This document shows positions 12,184-48,796 of a stretch of 64,000 nt of DNA, one piece after another. The stretch is from NCBI RefSeq assembly GCF_000379465.1, contig NZ_KB905380.1, forward strand, positions 620,001-684,000, written 5' to 3'. Positions within the stretch are counted from its first letter, which is position 1. Each line of letters starts with the position of its first letter. The DNA comes from Sciscionella marina DSM 45152 (lineage in GTDB: Bacteria > Actinomycetota > Actinomycetes > Mycobacteriales > Pseudonocardiaceae). Under the pieces are notes generated by a model that did no database searches, was not told where the DNA came from, and saw nothing but the letters and a program-made list of their open reading frames with translations. A program made the translations under genes and the position numbers.

Positions 12184-12692
12184 CCGGTGTCGTCCCGGCG
12201 GCGGGGATCATCCGGGCGCCGTGCCCAGGTGATGCCCGCCCACAGCACGGCGAGCACGATCACCGCGACGAGCGCGATGATCTGGCCGGGACCCGGTCCG
12301 GGGCCCGCCGCCTTGGTGGCGCTGGTCTGCTGGGACCACACCGCCAGTGCCCCGGCGACCACCGCGAGGTCGCAGCCGAGCGAGGTCACCCAGGCCGCCC
12401 CGTAGCGGCGCATGGCGAGCGCGAGCAGCGAACCGCCCGCGCCGAACACGAGCGCGAGCACCAGGAACACGGTCGGCACGATGCCCGCCGCGCCGAAGGC
12501 GCTGTCCTCTCCGGAGAGCACCTCCCAGCCGTAGCGCCCGGAGACGAACGGCAGCGCGACCGAGATGAGCAGCACGAGCACGGCGATCGCGATGAACAGC
12601 GCCCGCGGTCCCGGATCGAACTGATGCCGGGTCCGTTCACCGACCTCGTCGATCTCCTGGCCGAGCCGGTCCAGTGCCTGGTCGTCGTTCAT
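12180..12692 (-). CDS. Four-helix membrane protein, conserved hypothetical
   Basis: The 170-residue product has an acidic cytoplasmic N-terminus and four predicted membrane helices at about 31-51, 69-92, 98-118 and 137-156, with a short Arg-rich tail. Its place beside miaB matches M. tuberculosis Rv2732c. No function is known. Its ATG (12692-12690) overlaps as ATGA with the stop of a 25-codon mini-ORF, which in turn overlaps the miaB stop, so the three frames form a coupled chain. The sequence GGGAGGGAGTGCG just before the ATG serves as ribosome site and belongs to a repeat found twice more in this window. Confidence 0.85.
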   Translation of the reverse strand: MNDDQALDRLGQEIDEVGERTRHQFDPGPRALFIAIAVLVLLISVALPFVSGRYGWEVLSGEDSAFGAAGIVPTVFLVLALVFGAGGSLLALAMRRYGAAWVTSLGCDLAVVAGALAVWSQQTSATKAAGPGPGPGQIIALVAVIVLAVLWAGITWARRPDDPRRRDDTG

Positions 12693-12766
12693 CGCACTCC
12701 CTCCCTGCGGGAGCTCGGCGCTTCACGGGCGCTCTGTGTCGATGAAACGCTGCCAAGCTCGCTCAT
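12689..12766 (-). repeat. ATGA-bounded repeat, copy 1, with a 25-codon mini-ORF
   Basis: A 78-base unit that begins and ends with ATGA. The mini-ORF starts [11 protein letters not shown] and ends SRREGVR. Its ATG overlaps the miaB TGA and its TGA overlaps the ATG of the membrane protein. It differs from the copy at 19969-20046 at about 12 of 78 bases, while the sequences outside both ATGA borders are unrelated. It contains the small hairpin CTCCC-TGC-GGGAG. Confidence 0.75.
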
Positions 12767-19324: not shown

Positions 19325-19972
19325 ATGAATGTTCTCACCGATAACCTCGACGTCTATGGCAGTGCGTTACTCAACACCGTGCTGCTGTTCGTGTTCTCGG
19401 CGATCGGCGCGCTGATCCTCGGGGGAATCCTCGCGGTCATGCGCGTCTCGCCGGTTCCCGTACTGCGCGGGTTCGGGACCGTGTTCGTCACCATCGTGAT
19501 CAACACGCCGCTCACGGTCCTGTTCCTGTTGTTCCTGTTCGGGCTGCCGGTGCTGCAGATCGCCAATATCGATCCGTTCGTGTCCGCGGTGATCGCGCTG
19601 ATCGTCTACACGGCACCGTTCATCTGCGAGGTGATCCGGTCCGGGATCAACACCGTCGATCTCGGTCAGGCAGAGGCTGCCCGCGCGGTCGGGCTCACCT
19701 TCGGCCAGTCGCTGGCGAACATCGTGCTGCCCCAGGCGATCCGCTCGGTGGTGCCGCCGTTGATCAACCAGCTCAACGCGCTGCTGAAGAACACCACGGT
19801 CGCGGCCGGGTTCTCGGTCAGCGAGCTCGCCCTGGTGTACACCACGCTCAACGAGCGCGGGTACAGCACCTTGATCGCGCTGTGCTGGGTGGCGCTGGCA
19901 TTCATCATCCTGGTCACGCCGCTGCTGATCACTCAGCGAATGCTGGAGAAACGATGGAGGGTTGCGCGATGA
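19325..19972 (+). CDS. gluC: Glutamate-type ABC transporter permease 1
   Basis: A 215-residue inner-membrane permease of the HisM type with about five helices and the EAA loop (EAARAVGLTFGQSLANIVLP). It starts at ATG 19325. Its TGA (19970-19972) overlaps the ATG of a 25-codon mini-ORF as ATGA, and that mini-ORF overlaps the second permease the same way. Confidence 0.92.
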   Translation: MNVLTDNLDVYGSALLNTVLLFVFSAIGALILGGILAVMRVSPVPVLRGFGTVFVTIVINTPLTVLFLLFLFGLPVLQIANIDPFVSAVIALIVYTAPFICEVIRSGINTVDLGQAEAARAVGLTFGQSLANIVLPQAIRSVVPPLINQLNALLKNTTVAAGFSVSELALVYTTLNERGYSTLIALCWVALAFIILVTPLLITQRMLEKRWRVAR

Positions 19973-20046
19973 GCGAGCTCGCGAGCGAATCATCGACACA
20001 GCGCCGCCGCGTTGCGCCGGGCTCCCGCAGGGAGGGAGTGCGATGA
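19969..20046 (+). repeat. ATGA-bounded repeat, copy 2, with a 25-codon mini-ORF
   Basis: A 78-base unit inserted exactly between gluC and gluD. The mini-ORF begins [11 protein letters not shown] and ends SRREGVR, with its start overlapping the gluC stop and its stop overlapping the gluD start. The mini-peptide is identical to the miaB-linked one at 19 of 25 positions. The first 32 bases are identical to the copy at 26866. The last bases, GGGAGGGAGTGCG, act as the gluD ribosome site. Confidence 0.8.
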
Positions 20047-20945
20047 GCTCCAGTGTGCTCACCGACCTGCCCGGCCCGAAGGCGCGGGCACGGCATGCCC
20101 TGTACGGCGTGATCGGCACGATCATCATCCTCGGCATCCTCGCCTTCGTCATCTACCGGCTCGCCGACAGCGGTCAGTTCAACCCTGAGTTGTGGAGCTG
20201 GATCGAGTACCAGCAGATCCAGCTGAGCATCGTGTCCGCGCTGCTGCGCACGCTCGAGGCGTTCGCCGTCGGAGCGGTGCTCGCCCTCGTGTTCGGCGCG
20301 CTGCTCGCGGCGGGCCGGCTCTCCGATCACCGGTGGGTGCGTATCCCGGCCGGGTTCGTCGTCGAGCTGTTCCGGGCGATCCCGCTGCTCGTGCTGATGT
20401 TCCTGCTGTTCTTCGGCATCGGCGGGATCAGTTCGTTCCTCGCGGTCGTGCTCAGCCTGATGCTCTACAACGGTTCGGTGCTGGCCGAGATCTTCCGCGC
20501 GGGCATCCTCGCGGTGCCGCACGGGCAGGCTGAGGCCGCGTACGCACTGGGCATGCGCAAAACCAGGGTGATGCTGCTGATCCTGCTCCCGCAGGCGCTG
20601 CGCGCGATGCTGCCCACGATCGTGAGCCAACTGGTGGTGCTGCTCAAGGACACCGCGCTCGGTTCACTCATCCTGTTCCAGGAGCTGCTCTACTACTTCC
20701 GCCAGGGCATCGGCGGGCAGACCGATTTCGGCAACCCCGCGGTGCCCTCGGCGATCTCGGTCGCCGCGATCTACATCGTGATCTGCCTGCTGCTGTCCTG
20801 GCTGGCGACCTACCTGGAGAAGCGCAACCGGCGCAGCAAGAAGCGCGTGGTCCTGGAGGGCCCGGAGGCCGAACAGGTCGAGCAGATCGCCCTCGCCTCG
20901 GGCACCGAGGTCAGCGGCGGGGGCCAGCACGACAAGAATCAGTGA
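20043..20945 (+). CDS. gluD: Glutamate-type ABC transporter permease 2
   Basis: A 300-residue permease partner with a longer cytoplasmic N-terminus, five to six helices and the EAA loop (EAAYALGMRKTRVMLLILLP). The C-terminal 45 residues are charged and cytoplasmic. ATG 20043 begins MSSSVLTDLPGPKARARH and overlaps the mini-ORF stop. It is the last gene of the importer operon, followed by a strong hairpin. Confidence 0.92.
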   Translation: MSSSVLTDLPGPKARARHALYGVIGTIIILGILAFVIYRLADSGQFNPELWSWIEYQQIQLSIVSALLRTLEAFAVGAVLALVFGALLAAGRLSDHRWVRIPAGFVVELFRAIPLLVLMFLLFFGIGGISSFLAVVLSLMLYNGSVLAEIFRAGILAVPHGQAEAAYALGMRKTRVMLLILLPQALRAMLPTIVSQLVVLLKDTALGSLILFQELLYYFRQGIGGQTDFGNPAVPSAISVAAIYIVICLLLSWLATYLEKRNRRSKKRVVLEGPEAEQVEQIALASGTEVSGGGQHDKNQ

Positions 20946-26696: not shown

Positions 26697-26831
26697 GGTG
26701 AGCCACCACCTGCCTTGTCCGAGGTCTGTTCTGTTTCGTGCTGTCGTGCCCAAGCTACGACCAAGGACCGACAATCCAAGGGCGGCCCGAGAATCTGTGG
26801 ATACCGGGTACCGCTGTGGACAACACAATAG

Positions 26832-26847
26832 ACGAACACCTGTTCGA
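26832..26847. promoter_or_regulatory. SOS box (LexA operator) upstream of recA
   Basis: ACGAACACCTGTTCGA fits TCGAAC-N4-GTTCGA with one change at the outermost base. A second dyad, TGTTCG-AAG-CGAACA (26841-26855), overlaps its right arm. With the repeat copy starting at 26866 this explains most of the 308 bases between recA and the next gene. Confidence 0.85.
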
Positions 26848-26865
26848 AGCGAACAGGACACGCCG

Positions 26866-26941
26866 ATGAGCGAGCTCGCGAGCGAATCATCGACACAACG
26901 CCCGCGAAGCGCCGAGCTCCCGCAGGGAGCGAGTGCGATGA
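26866..26941 (+). repeat. ATGA-bounded repeat, copy 3
   Basis: A 76-base relative of the copies at 12689 and 19969. Its first 32 bases equal the gluC-gluD copy; its last 36 differ from the miaB copy at one or two bases. It also starts and ends with ATGA, but two bases are missing, so [11 protein letters not shown] runs on without a stop. It does not join two genes; it lies between the recA promoter and a broken oxidoreductase gene. Confidence 0.75.
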
Positions 26942-47308: not shown

Positions 47309-48796
47309 TCAGTTACCGGAGAGCTTCTCGCGCAGTGCGGCGAGCTGCTCGTCGGAGGCGAGGGTGCCACCGTTGGTGGACGGCGCGGCCGGAGCGGAGG
47401 AGTATCCGCCGTCGGTCGCGGCGGCACCGGTGGTGTCCTCGCCACCCTCGGCACCGGCCTCGGCGTCGAGCTGAGCCGCACGGGCGACCTGCGCCATGTG
47501 CTGCTCGTAGCGGCGGTGGGCCTCGGCGTACTGCCGCTCCCACTCCTCGCGCTGCTTGTCGAAGCCTTCCTGCCACTCCTGGGTCTCCGGGTCGAAGCCC
47601 TCGGGGTAGATGTAGTTGCCCTCGTTGTCGTAGTCGGCGGTCATGCCGTACTGCGTCGGGTCGAACTCCGAGTCCGGGGTGAAGCCCTCGTTGGCCTGCT
47701 TGAGCGAGAGCGAGATGCGCCTGCGCTCCAGGTCGATGTCGATGACCTTGACCATGACCTCGCCGCCGACCTGCACGACCTGCTCGGGCAGTTCCACGTG
47801 CCGCTCGGCGAGCTCGGAGATGTGCACCAGGCCCTCGATGCCGTCCTGGACGCGCACGAACGCGCCGAACGGGACGAGCTTGGTGACCTTGCCCGGCACG
47901 ATCTGGCCGATCGCGTGGGTGCGGGCGAACTGGCGCCACGGGTCTTCCTGGGTCGCCTTGAGCGAGAGGGAGACGCGCTCGCGGTCCATGTCCACGTCGA
48001 GCACCTCGACGGTGACTTCCTGGCCGACCTCGACGACCTCGCTCGGGTGGTCGATGTGCTTCCAGGACAGCTCGGAGACGTGCACGAGACCGTCGACGCC
48101 GCCGAGGTCCACGAACGCACCGAAGTTGACGATGGAGGACACGACGCCCTTGCGGACCTGACCCTTGGCCAGCGCGTTGAGGAACTCGCTGCGCACCTCG
48201 GACTGGGTCTGCTCCAGCCAGGCACGGCGGGAGAGCACCACGTTGTTGCGGTTCTTGTCCAGCTCGATGATCTTGGCCTCGAGCTCCTTGTGCACGTAGG
48301 GCTGCAGGTCGCGAACCCGGCGCATCTCCACCAGCGAAGCGGGAAGGAAGCCGCGGAGCCCGATGTCCAGGATGAGGCCGCCCTTGACGACCTCGATGAC
48401 GGTGCCGCGCACCGGCTCGTCCTTCTCCTTGAGCTCTTCGATCGTGCCCCAGGCGCGCTCGTACTGGGCGCGCTTCTTGGACAGGATCAGCCTGCCTTCC
48501 TTGTCCTCTTTCTGGAGGACGAGGGCCTCGACCTCATCGCCGACGGTGACGACCTCGTTCGGGTCGACATCGTGCTTGATGGACAGTTCGCGTGACGGGA
48601 TCACGCCCTCGGTCTTGTAACCGATGTCGAGCAGCACTTCGTCGCGGTCGACCTTGACGATGGTGCCCTCGACGATGTCGCCATCGTTGAAGTACTTGAT
48701 CGTCTTGTCGATGGCGGCGAGGAAGTCTTCCTCCGACCCGATGTCGTTGATCGCGACCTGTGTGGTCGTCGGGGCGGCGGTGGTGTCGATGGACAT
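47309..48796 (-). CDS. rpsA: 30S ribosomal protein S1
   Basis: A 495-residue S1 protein with four S1 (OB-fold) RNA-binding repeats, typical of actinobacteria. Their ends are marked by repeated LSLKxxxxDPW-like patterns. The C-terminal 100 residues are acidic, Gln/Ala-rich and lack an OB fold. S1 helps mRNA bind the ribosome. ATG 48796 begins MSIDTTAAPTTTQVAIND, usual for the group. The gene is alone between aroG and a divergent methyltransferase. Confidence 0.96.
   Translation of the reverse strand: MSIDTTAAPTTTQVAINDIGSEEDFLAAIDKTIKYFNDGDIVEGTIVKVDRDEVLLDIGYKTEGVIPSRELSIKHDVDPNEVVTVGDEVEALVLQKEDKEGRLILSKKRAQYERAWGTIEELKEKDEPVRGTVIEVVKGGLILDIGLRGFLPASLVEMRRVRDLQPYVHKELEAKIIELDKNRNNVVLSRRAWLEQTQSEVRSEFLNALAKGQVRKGVVSSIVNFGAFVDLGGVDGLVHVSELSWKHIDHPSEVVEVGQEVTVEVLDVDMDRERVSLSLKATQEDPWRQFARTHAIGQIVPGKVTKLVPFGAFVRVQDGIEGLVHISELAERHVELPEQVVQVGGEVMVKVIDIDLERRRISLSLKQANEGFTPDSEFDPTQYGMTADYDNEGNYIYPEGFDPETQEWQEGFDKQREEWERQYAEAHRRYEQHMAQVARAAQLDAEAGAEGGEDTTGAAATDGGYSSAPAAPSTNGGTLASDEQLAALREKLSGN

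Follow-up and report, generated by a model that had tools for sequence, protein, structure and literature searches.

The junction between a gluC-like and a gluD-like permease gene in Sciscionella marina DSM 45152 holds one member of a family of short, non-autonomous repeats, which are most probably insertion elements resembling the mycobacterial interspersed repetitive units (MIRUs), said to have been described by Supply and colleagues in 1997 (Mol Microbiol 26:991). Such an element would enter a DTGA sequence, with the ribosome site of the host then serving its mini-ORF, its own site serving the downstream gene, and the resulting relay keeping the operon coupled. This reading is built on the copies themselves, on empty sites, on the polarity of change at one site, on a reading frame that is open while amino acids show no sign of conservation, and on ribosome-site-like sequence on both sides. 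The window, by which we mean the whole stretch of 64,000 nucleotides that was analysed, holds three copies (Table 1). A preliminary description of this DNA had recorded two of them. Its account of the unit between gluC and gluD, running from ATGA to ATGA over 25 codons between the stop of the one gene and the start of the other, agrees with ours in coordinates and frame, and the copy beside miaB does carry the 12 changes that had been counted (65 of 77 bases identical, E 5e-20 in a search within the window); the third copy and the genome-wide family had been missed.

Table 1. Features of the gluC-gluD junction, copies of the repeat element in the window, and state of the S. marina sites in the congener G001
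Feature	Position or loci	Strand	Remarks
Repeat element, DTGA to DTGA	19969..20046	+	25-codon mini-ORF, ATG 19969, stop TGA 20044-20046; empty in congener G001
gluC-like ABC permease	19325..19972	+	BPD_transp_1; stop (19970-19972) is the element's first TGA
gluD-like ABC permease	20043..20945	+	start ATG 20043 within the element's last ATGA
Second copy	12689..12766	-	between miaB-like gene and Rv2732c-family gene; 25-codon mini-ORF; L009; empty in congener G001
Third copy	26866..26941	+	recA upstream region; 2-nt deletion; no stop/start overlap; L002; congener G001 with single ATGA
Shine-Dalgarno-like GGAGGG in gluC 3' end	19956..19961	+	before the mini-ORF here, before gluD in the empty congener site; duplex energy -10.2
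Element-borne Shine-Dalgarno-like GGGAGGGAG before gluD	20030..20038	+	duplex energy -12.1, background mean -4.97
Predicted hairpin CTCCC-GCA-GGGAG over ribosome site	20022..20034	+	pairing over 37 copies; weak covariation
Empty in G001, outside the window	L004, L006, L007, L008, L011, L013, L014, L015, L016, L020, L026		
Occupied in S. marina and G001 (7)	L010, L012, L017, L018, L019, L022, L024		
Other content in G001 (3)	L003, L023, L027		L003: 34 head-like bases; L023: 10 bases; L027: 20 bases

Across the S. marina genome the 77-nt unit gives 50 BLAST matches, and at least 28 of these extend over 64 or more of its 77 bases, a lower bound obtained with 40 of 86 first-look candidates scored and far beyond chance. 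Identity to the gluC-gluD copy is 74-91% among the near-complete paralogues; as three pairs are tandems, the 28 units occupy 25 sites. In the genomes read, 74 bases is the commonest unit length, with 71, 77 and 80 also found, 72 in the broken window copy L002, and 81 in L040, which we read as a fusion. Tandem spacings, read by hand, are 74, 77, 80, 89 or 95 in eight arrays, all 2 mod 3, as ATGA coupling demands; spacings of 75 or 63 in four further arrays, like those of 30 or 33 in head-only arrays, are 0 mod 3 and stay in frame, and a spacing of 1 mod 3 was found in none of the arrays read in this way. Copy number varies, two copies at L018 corresponding to one in G001 (L101), and tandems are also present on contigs C2 and C13.

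Within the window, the second copy is flanked by a MiaB-like ORF (UPF0004 and Radical SAM domains) and a gene for an Rv2732c-family membrane protein, while the third, 70 of 77 bases identical to the gluC-gluD copy, lies upstream of a recA ORF (RecA domain) on the other strand. Directly before this third copy, at 26830-26866 in the recA upstream region, is a palindrome-like stretch, GAACACCTGTTCG, which we take to resemble an SOS box. Rfam covariance models found nothing in positions 19700-20300, even with E values up to 1 allowed. The window also contains a 156-base direct repeat, 47688-47843 against 47946-48101, with 71% identity.

Comparison with G001, the one congener in our samples, covered 24 of the 25 S. 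marina sites, L005 being left out; one query for twenty sites beyond the window copies located every one of them there. At the three window copies the flanks in G001 are 85-98% identical over about 400 bases and enclose a single ATGA instead of the unit. Fourteen of the 24 sites, among them all 3 in the window and 11 of 20 further ones, are cleanly empty in G001 and show one DTGA, and the remainder are either occupied in both genomes or hold other content; L017 was scored as occupied because G001 has a unit there (L090), despite a gap of 3 in the automatic comparison. Aligned in this way, the occupied and empty sites show that the repeat element is mobile, and they bear out the earlier proposal of a mobile unit that goes into an overlap already present, here a DTGA, with the geometry of coupling kept. 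At two sites shared by both genomes the paired copies (a19/b87 with 15 changes, a10/b88 with 13) are less alike than either is to other copies, and re-insertion or conversion is therefore possible at those sites. The 4-base duplication that had been proposed stands in so far as (D)TGA is found on both sides of the unit; a strict length of four bases may not apply, as the letter preceding TGA is not the same at both ends of L010 and L014 (A/G), L032 (G/A) and L097 (A/T), though it agrees in L048 (G/G).

The direction of change was examined at the gluC-gluD junction only. A GluD match was obtained in 69 of 120 genomes, and the best 30 of these 69 loci, the occupied S. marina locus among them, were read: in 27 of the 29 other loci gluD starts at the position of the gluC stop minus one, a plain overlap, and insertion is therefore the derived state there. 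This single overlap, together with the empty sites of G001, is what the preliminary description had expected of orthologous operons without the element. It had also named two findings that would speak against a mobile unit, and neither was made: the two other inserts at gluC-gluD differ in sequence from the element, and the repeats elsewhere do end at DTGA. One of these two inserts (L053, in genome G138) is 201 bases long, sits at the same DTGA, comprises about five head-like units of 29-30 bases and a family-like tail, and is open in phase. The other (L074, in G127) is an unrelated-looking insert of 78 bases, again at the same DTGA, with an in-phase relay ORF of 25 codons and inverted repeats by eye.

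The mini-ORF is open from the upstream stop to the downstream start in 25 of the 26 S. marina copies scored, a set that leaves out L005 and the unit at C13:535379. Twenty-four of these have a frame of 24 or 25 codons ending in DTGA, one continues in frame through the second unit of a tandem, and the sole broken copy is the one in the recA upstream region, which has lost its frame because of the 2-nt deletion and also lies outside operon junctions. The ORFs downstream of the S. marina copies are mostly of gene length, L013 being a short exception with 33 codons, and in some copies (L008, for example) the upstream end of the element is a start codon alone, with no stop overlap. An alignment (A1) of 37 copies from three genomes, chosen by similarity and length and without L002, L015 and L027, has no in-frame stop in any copy; frame 2 is interrupted in all 37 and frame 3 in 10, being open in 27. 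The ratio of synonymous to nonsynonymous changes in these copies is 92:279 against a null of 96.6:263.8, and amino-acid changes in the mini-ORF look neutral. Of single changes that by themselves would create a stop there are 5, with 15.5 expected, when every copy is counted (minimum 6 in 300 draws), but 3 against 4.4 when counted once per column and base, with 33% of draws as low; the depletion is then not significant, and we regard it as suggestive only. In L015, indels of +1 and -1 can be read as cancelling one another and restoring the frame. Our reading is that a translatable frame, not a peptide, is being maintained.

Duplex energies with the anti-Shine-Dalgarno tail sequence place ribosome-site-like sequence on both sides of the insertion. 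Averaged over the 24 S. marina copies with a scored frame, host DNA before the target has an energy of -7.83 kcal/mol; the 212 ATGA of the window together average -4.97, and none of 5000 random sets is as low as the targets. The element's own site is stronger still, with a mean of -9.95 kcal/mol, in keeping with the earlier suggestion that the unit supplies a ribosome site. The hairpin predicted over this site (alignment columns 54-58 with 62-66) has 90.8% of cells paired over the 37 copies, against 46.5-63.8% in slid controls. Its covariation amounts to two pairs changed on both sides, mostly in the lineage of G005, and 197 of 500 shuffles reach as many; a slide of -3 scores as well for covariation (0.207 against 0.206). 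Fold z-scores are -0.31, -2.16 and -0.06 for the window copies and -1.39 for the 34-nt hairpin alone. A further helix, joining columns 22-27 to columns 73-78 over the start codon of the downstream gene, was rejected as unusable: 87.4% of its cells are paired, but it has no double-changed pairs, and shuffles reach as much because ATGA fixes its 3' side.

Taken together, the layout of these sequences points to a relay from host site to mini-ORF to element site to gene. The unit would be moved in trans, by some enzyme, into a DTGA that is mostly a stop/start overlap or a start codon, and its insertion would leave (D)TGA at either end. The ribosome site of the host would now precede the 25-codon mini-ORF, whose stop would overlap the start codon of the next gene; that gene would in turn be preceded by the ribosome site of the element, in its small predicted hairpin. 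Ribosomes could be relayed from gene to mini-ORF to gene, and the operon would therefore survive the insertion. Translation of the mini-ORF, opening of the hairpin by that translation and movement driven by a transposase are steps that we infer.

Several other readings of the same data were weighed. A frame open in nearly all copies, and a head peptide, MSELASES, that recurs in many genera, are what one could cite for the mini-ORF as a small gene that is old, conserved and makes a functional peptide, but the mini-ORF is missing from the same site in G001 and from 27 of the 29 other gluC-gluD loci, the tails vary between genera, and the substitution test, with no synonymous excess, gives no support to a conserved peptide; we consider such a gene very improbable. 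Gene conversion, which the preliminary description had offered beside mobility and which is taken here as spread between pre-existing spacers, could draw on the identity of the near-complete paralogues to the window copy and on the two shared-site pairs that are less alike than paralogues. The empty sites are exact, however, and their flanks have only DTGA in common, and therefore no earlier copy was there to convert; as a route into new sites conversion must be abandoned, and we give it hardly any credence as the origin of the family, although existing copies may still convert.

A mobile element could also have left the same pattern in other ways. If the units were ancestral and had been lost from the congener by precise excision, the loss would yield the same single DTGA, and polarity was examined at one site; at that site, though, the single overlap in 27 of 29 other loci speaks against loss, to which we assign very little weight. 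The same element might instead be moved by an enzyme of the IS200/IS605 type (Y1, REP/RAYT-like), with DTGA as the left target and the right TGA belonging to the element. Its fixed orientation to an asymmetric target would fit, as would putative hairpins close to either end (pairing in 87.8% and 90.8% of cells, with weak covariation) and the base before TGA that is not always equal at the two ends. Against this, PF01797 gave no match in the carriers G000, G001, G005, G007, G010, G016 and G020, several of these genomes being drafts, and the 5 of 41 genomes with a PF01797 match (G006, G008, G013, G041, G046) are all without an element match. We regard an enzyme of this type as unlikely, and a Y1/RAYT protein acting in trans was set aside for want of a PF01797 match in the carriers searched.

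The MIRU-like insertion element that we favour has a distinct architecture: a constant head (DTGAGCGAGCTTGCGAGCGAATCATCGACACAG), tails that are variable and differ between genera, and heads that occur alone as N-terminal fusions. A head profile (R1) matches at least 34 of 200 genomes of the order, S. marina included, in families f1, f2, f4, f8, f13, f15 and f16, and 11 of these 34 belong to the host's own family. Across the phylum it matches at least 4 of 198 genomes, S. marina included and two of them near threshold, and in family f8 at least 2 of 101; all these counts are lower bounds from strict filters on genomes many of which are drafts. The exact head pattern was found in six genera, Pseudonocardia, Actinokineospora, Kibdelosporangium, Actinophytocola, Nocardia and Rhodococcus. 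At 19 of 24 head-pattern loci a mini-ORF ends in the DTGA of a further ORF of at least 67 codons (at least 118 in 17 of the 19), three are in-frame fusions to a long ORF (L188, L191, L199), and two show neither arrangement (L186, L197). Weaker head matches gave 12 further loci in S. marina. Five have a mini-ORF ending in DTGA (L263, L268-L271), the next ORF at L268 having only 13 codons, and in the other seven (L261, L262, L264, L265, L266, L267, L272) the head forms an N-terminal extension of a long ORF; at L261 the 30-base head occurs four times in tandem, in frame. Pfam searches with six of these seven fusions and with L028 place the beginning of the enzyme domains past the added residues (FolB from residue 15, isochorismatase from residue 14). 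The head-fused enzymes of S. marina (L261, L262, L264-L267, L272, L028, L029) comprise short-chain dehydrogenase, amidohydrolase, Asp/Glu racemase, isochorismatase, ROK, FolB and alanine dehydrogenase/PNT types.

No description of this sequence family was recognised in the open-access literature searched, subscription papers lying mostly outside that scope. The family itself is apparently new: its head is constant while its tails vary, the head also occurs alone in N-terminal fusions, and members are present in seven families of the order. Its insertions amount to a natural experiment at some two dozen sites, where stop/start overlaps or start codons have been entered with a relay ORF and a new ribosome site nearly always in place. 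With occupied and empty versions of one site available in two congeners, translational coupling could be measured directly. The search for the moving enzyme would also become concrete; to our knowledge, none has been described for the MIRUs.

Other classes of short repeat share some of these properties. REP/REPIN sequences with their RAYT are extragenic palindromes without a relay ORF that need a Y1 transposase; the present family resembles them in being short, non-autonomous, interspersed and associated with palindromes, but differs in its relay ORF and in the carriers searched, which lack a Y1 transposase match. MITEs are short non-autonomous insertions that leave a small target repeat, as does the present element, in which, by contrast, no terminal inverted repeats were seen by eye; no parental transposon was found with PF01797 or in the flanks of the copies looked at.

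The closest likeness is to MIRUs. The preliminary description knew of no described element with this behaviour, a statement that has to be withdrawn, since MIRUs have been described as apparently mobile, entering start codons and carrying an internal ORF coupled at a spacing of -4 nt (PMC12548453). The senX3-regX3 junction holds MIRUs of 77 and 53 bp, both 2 mod 3 as ATGA coupling demands, which at this junction are restricted to M. leprae and the M. tuberculosis complex (PMC4213456). A published 20-nt MIRU primer (PMC2413405) had no exact match in 396 genomes of genus g42, presumed to be Mycobacterium, and matched 116 of them with 1-2 mismatches, and 30 primer-match loci in that genus held no SenX3-RegX3-like regulator above 65% identity. 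One S. marina copy, L019, has a histidine kinase gene on one side and an OmpR-type regulator gene on the other, a pair that we infer from identity and gene order to be SenX3-RegX3-like; no NCBIfam model named SenX3 or RegX3 was among the matches listed for it. In family f8 the regulator is matched, with E values up to 1e-60, in 61 of 61 genomes, the best identities being 61-83%. Among the best 30 of these 61, 22 kinase-regulator junctions are plain DTGA overlaps, six hold inserts and two show other arrangements (L201, L218). Five of the six inserts (L206, L207, L213, L214, L229, but not L204) form in-phase relay ORFs, 6 to 36 codons long, with DTGA ends and differing sequences.

Compared by the behaviour described for MIRUs rather than by sequence, the present element would work like one. 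Both are short intergenic units present many times over (at least 28 near-complete copies here), with tandem copies in variable number and an internal ORF that overlaps the upstream stop and the downstream start (25 of 26 S. marina copies; 19 of 24 head-pattern loci). MIRUs insert at DTGA, as the clean empty sites in G001 indicate for the present family. The constant head, variable tails, head-only fusions and strongest presence in the host's own family set it apart. We would suggest treating the MIRU as an example of a broader class, not as a peculiarity of mycobacteria. More tentatively, both may be branches of a translation-relay superfamily that has spread through several families of the order with translational coupling between genes as its niche, is moved by an undescribed enzyme, and, where its 30-nt head is all that is left, repeatedly seeds N-terminal extensions of enzymes, a proposal that we find plausible without yet leaning towards it.
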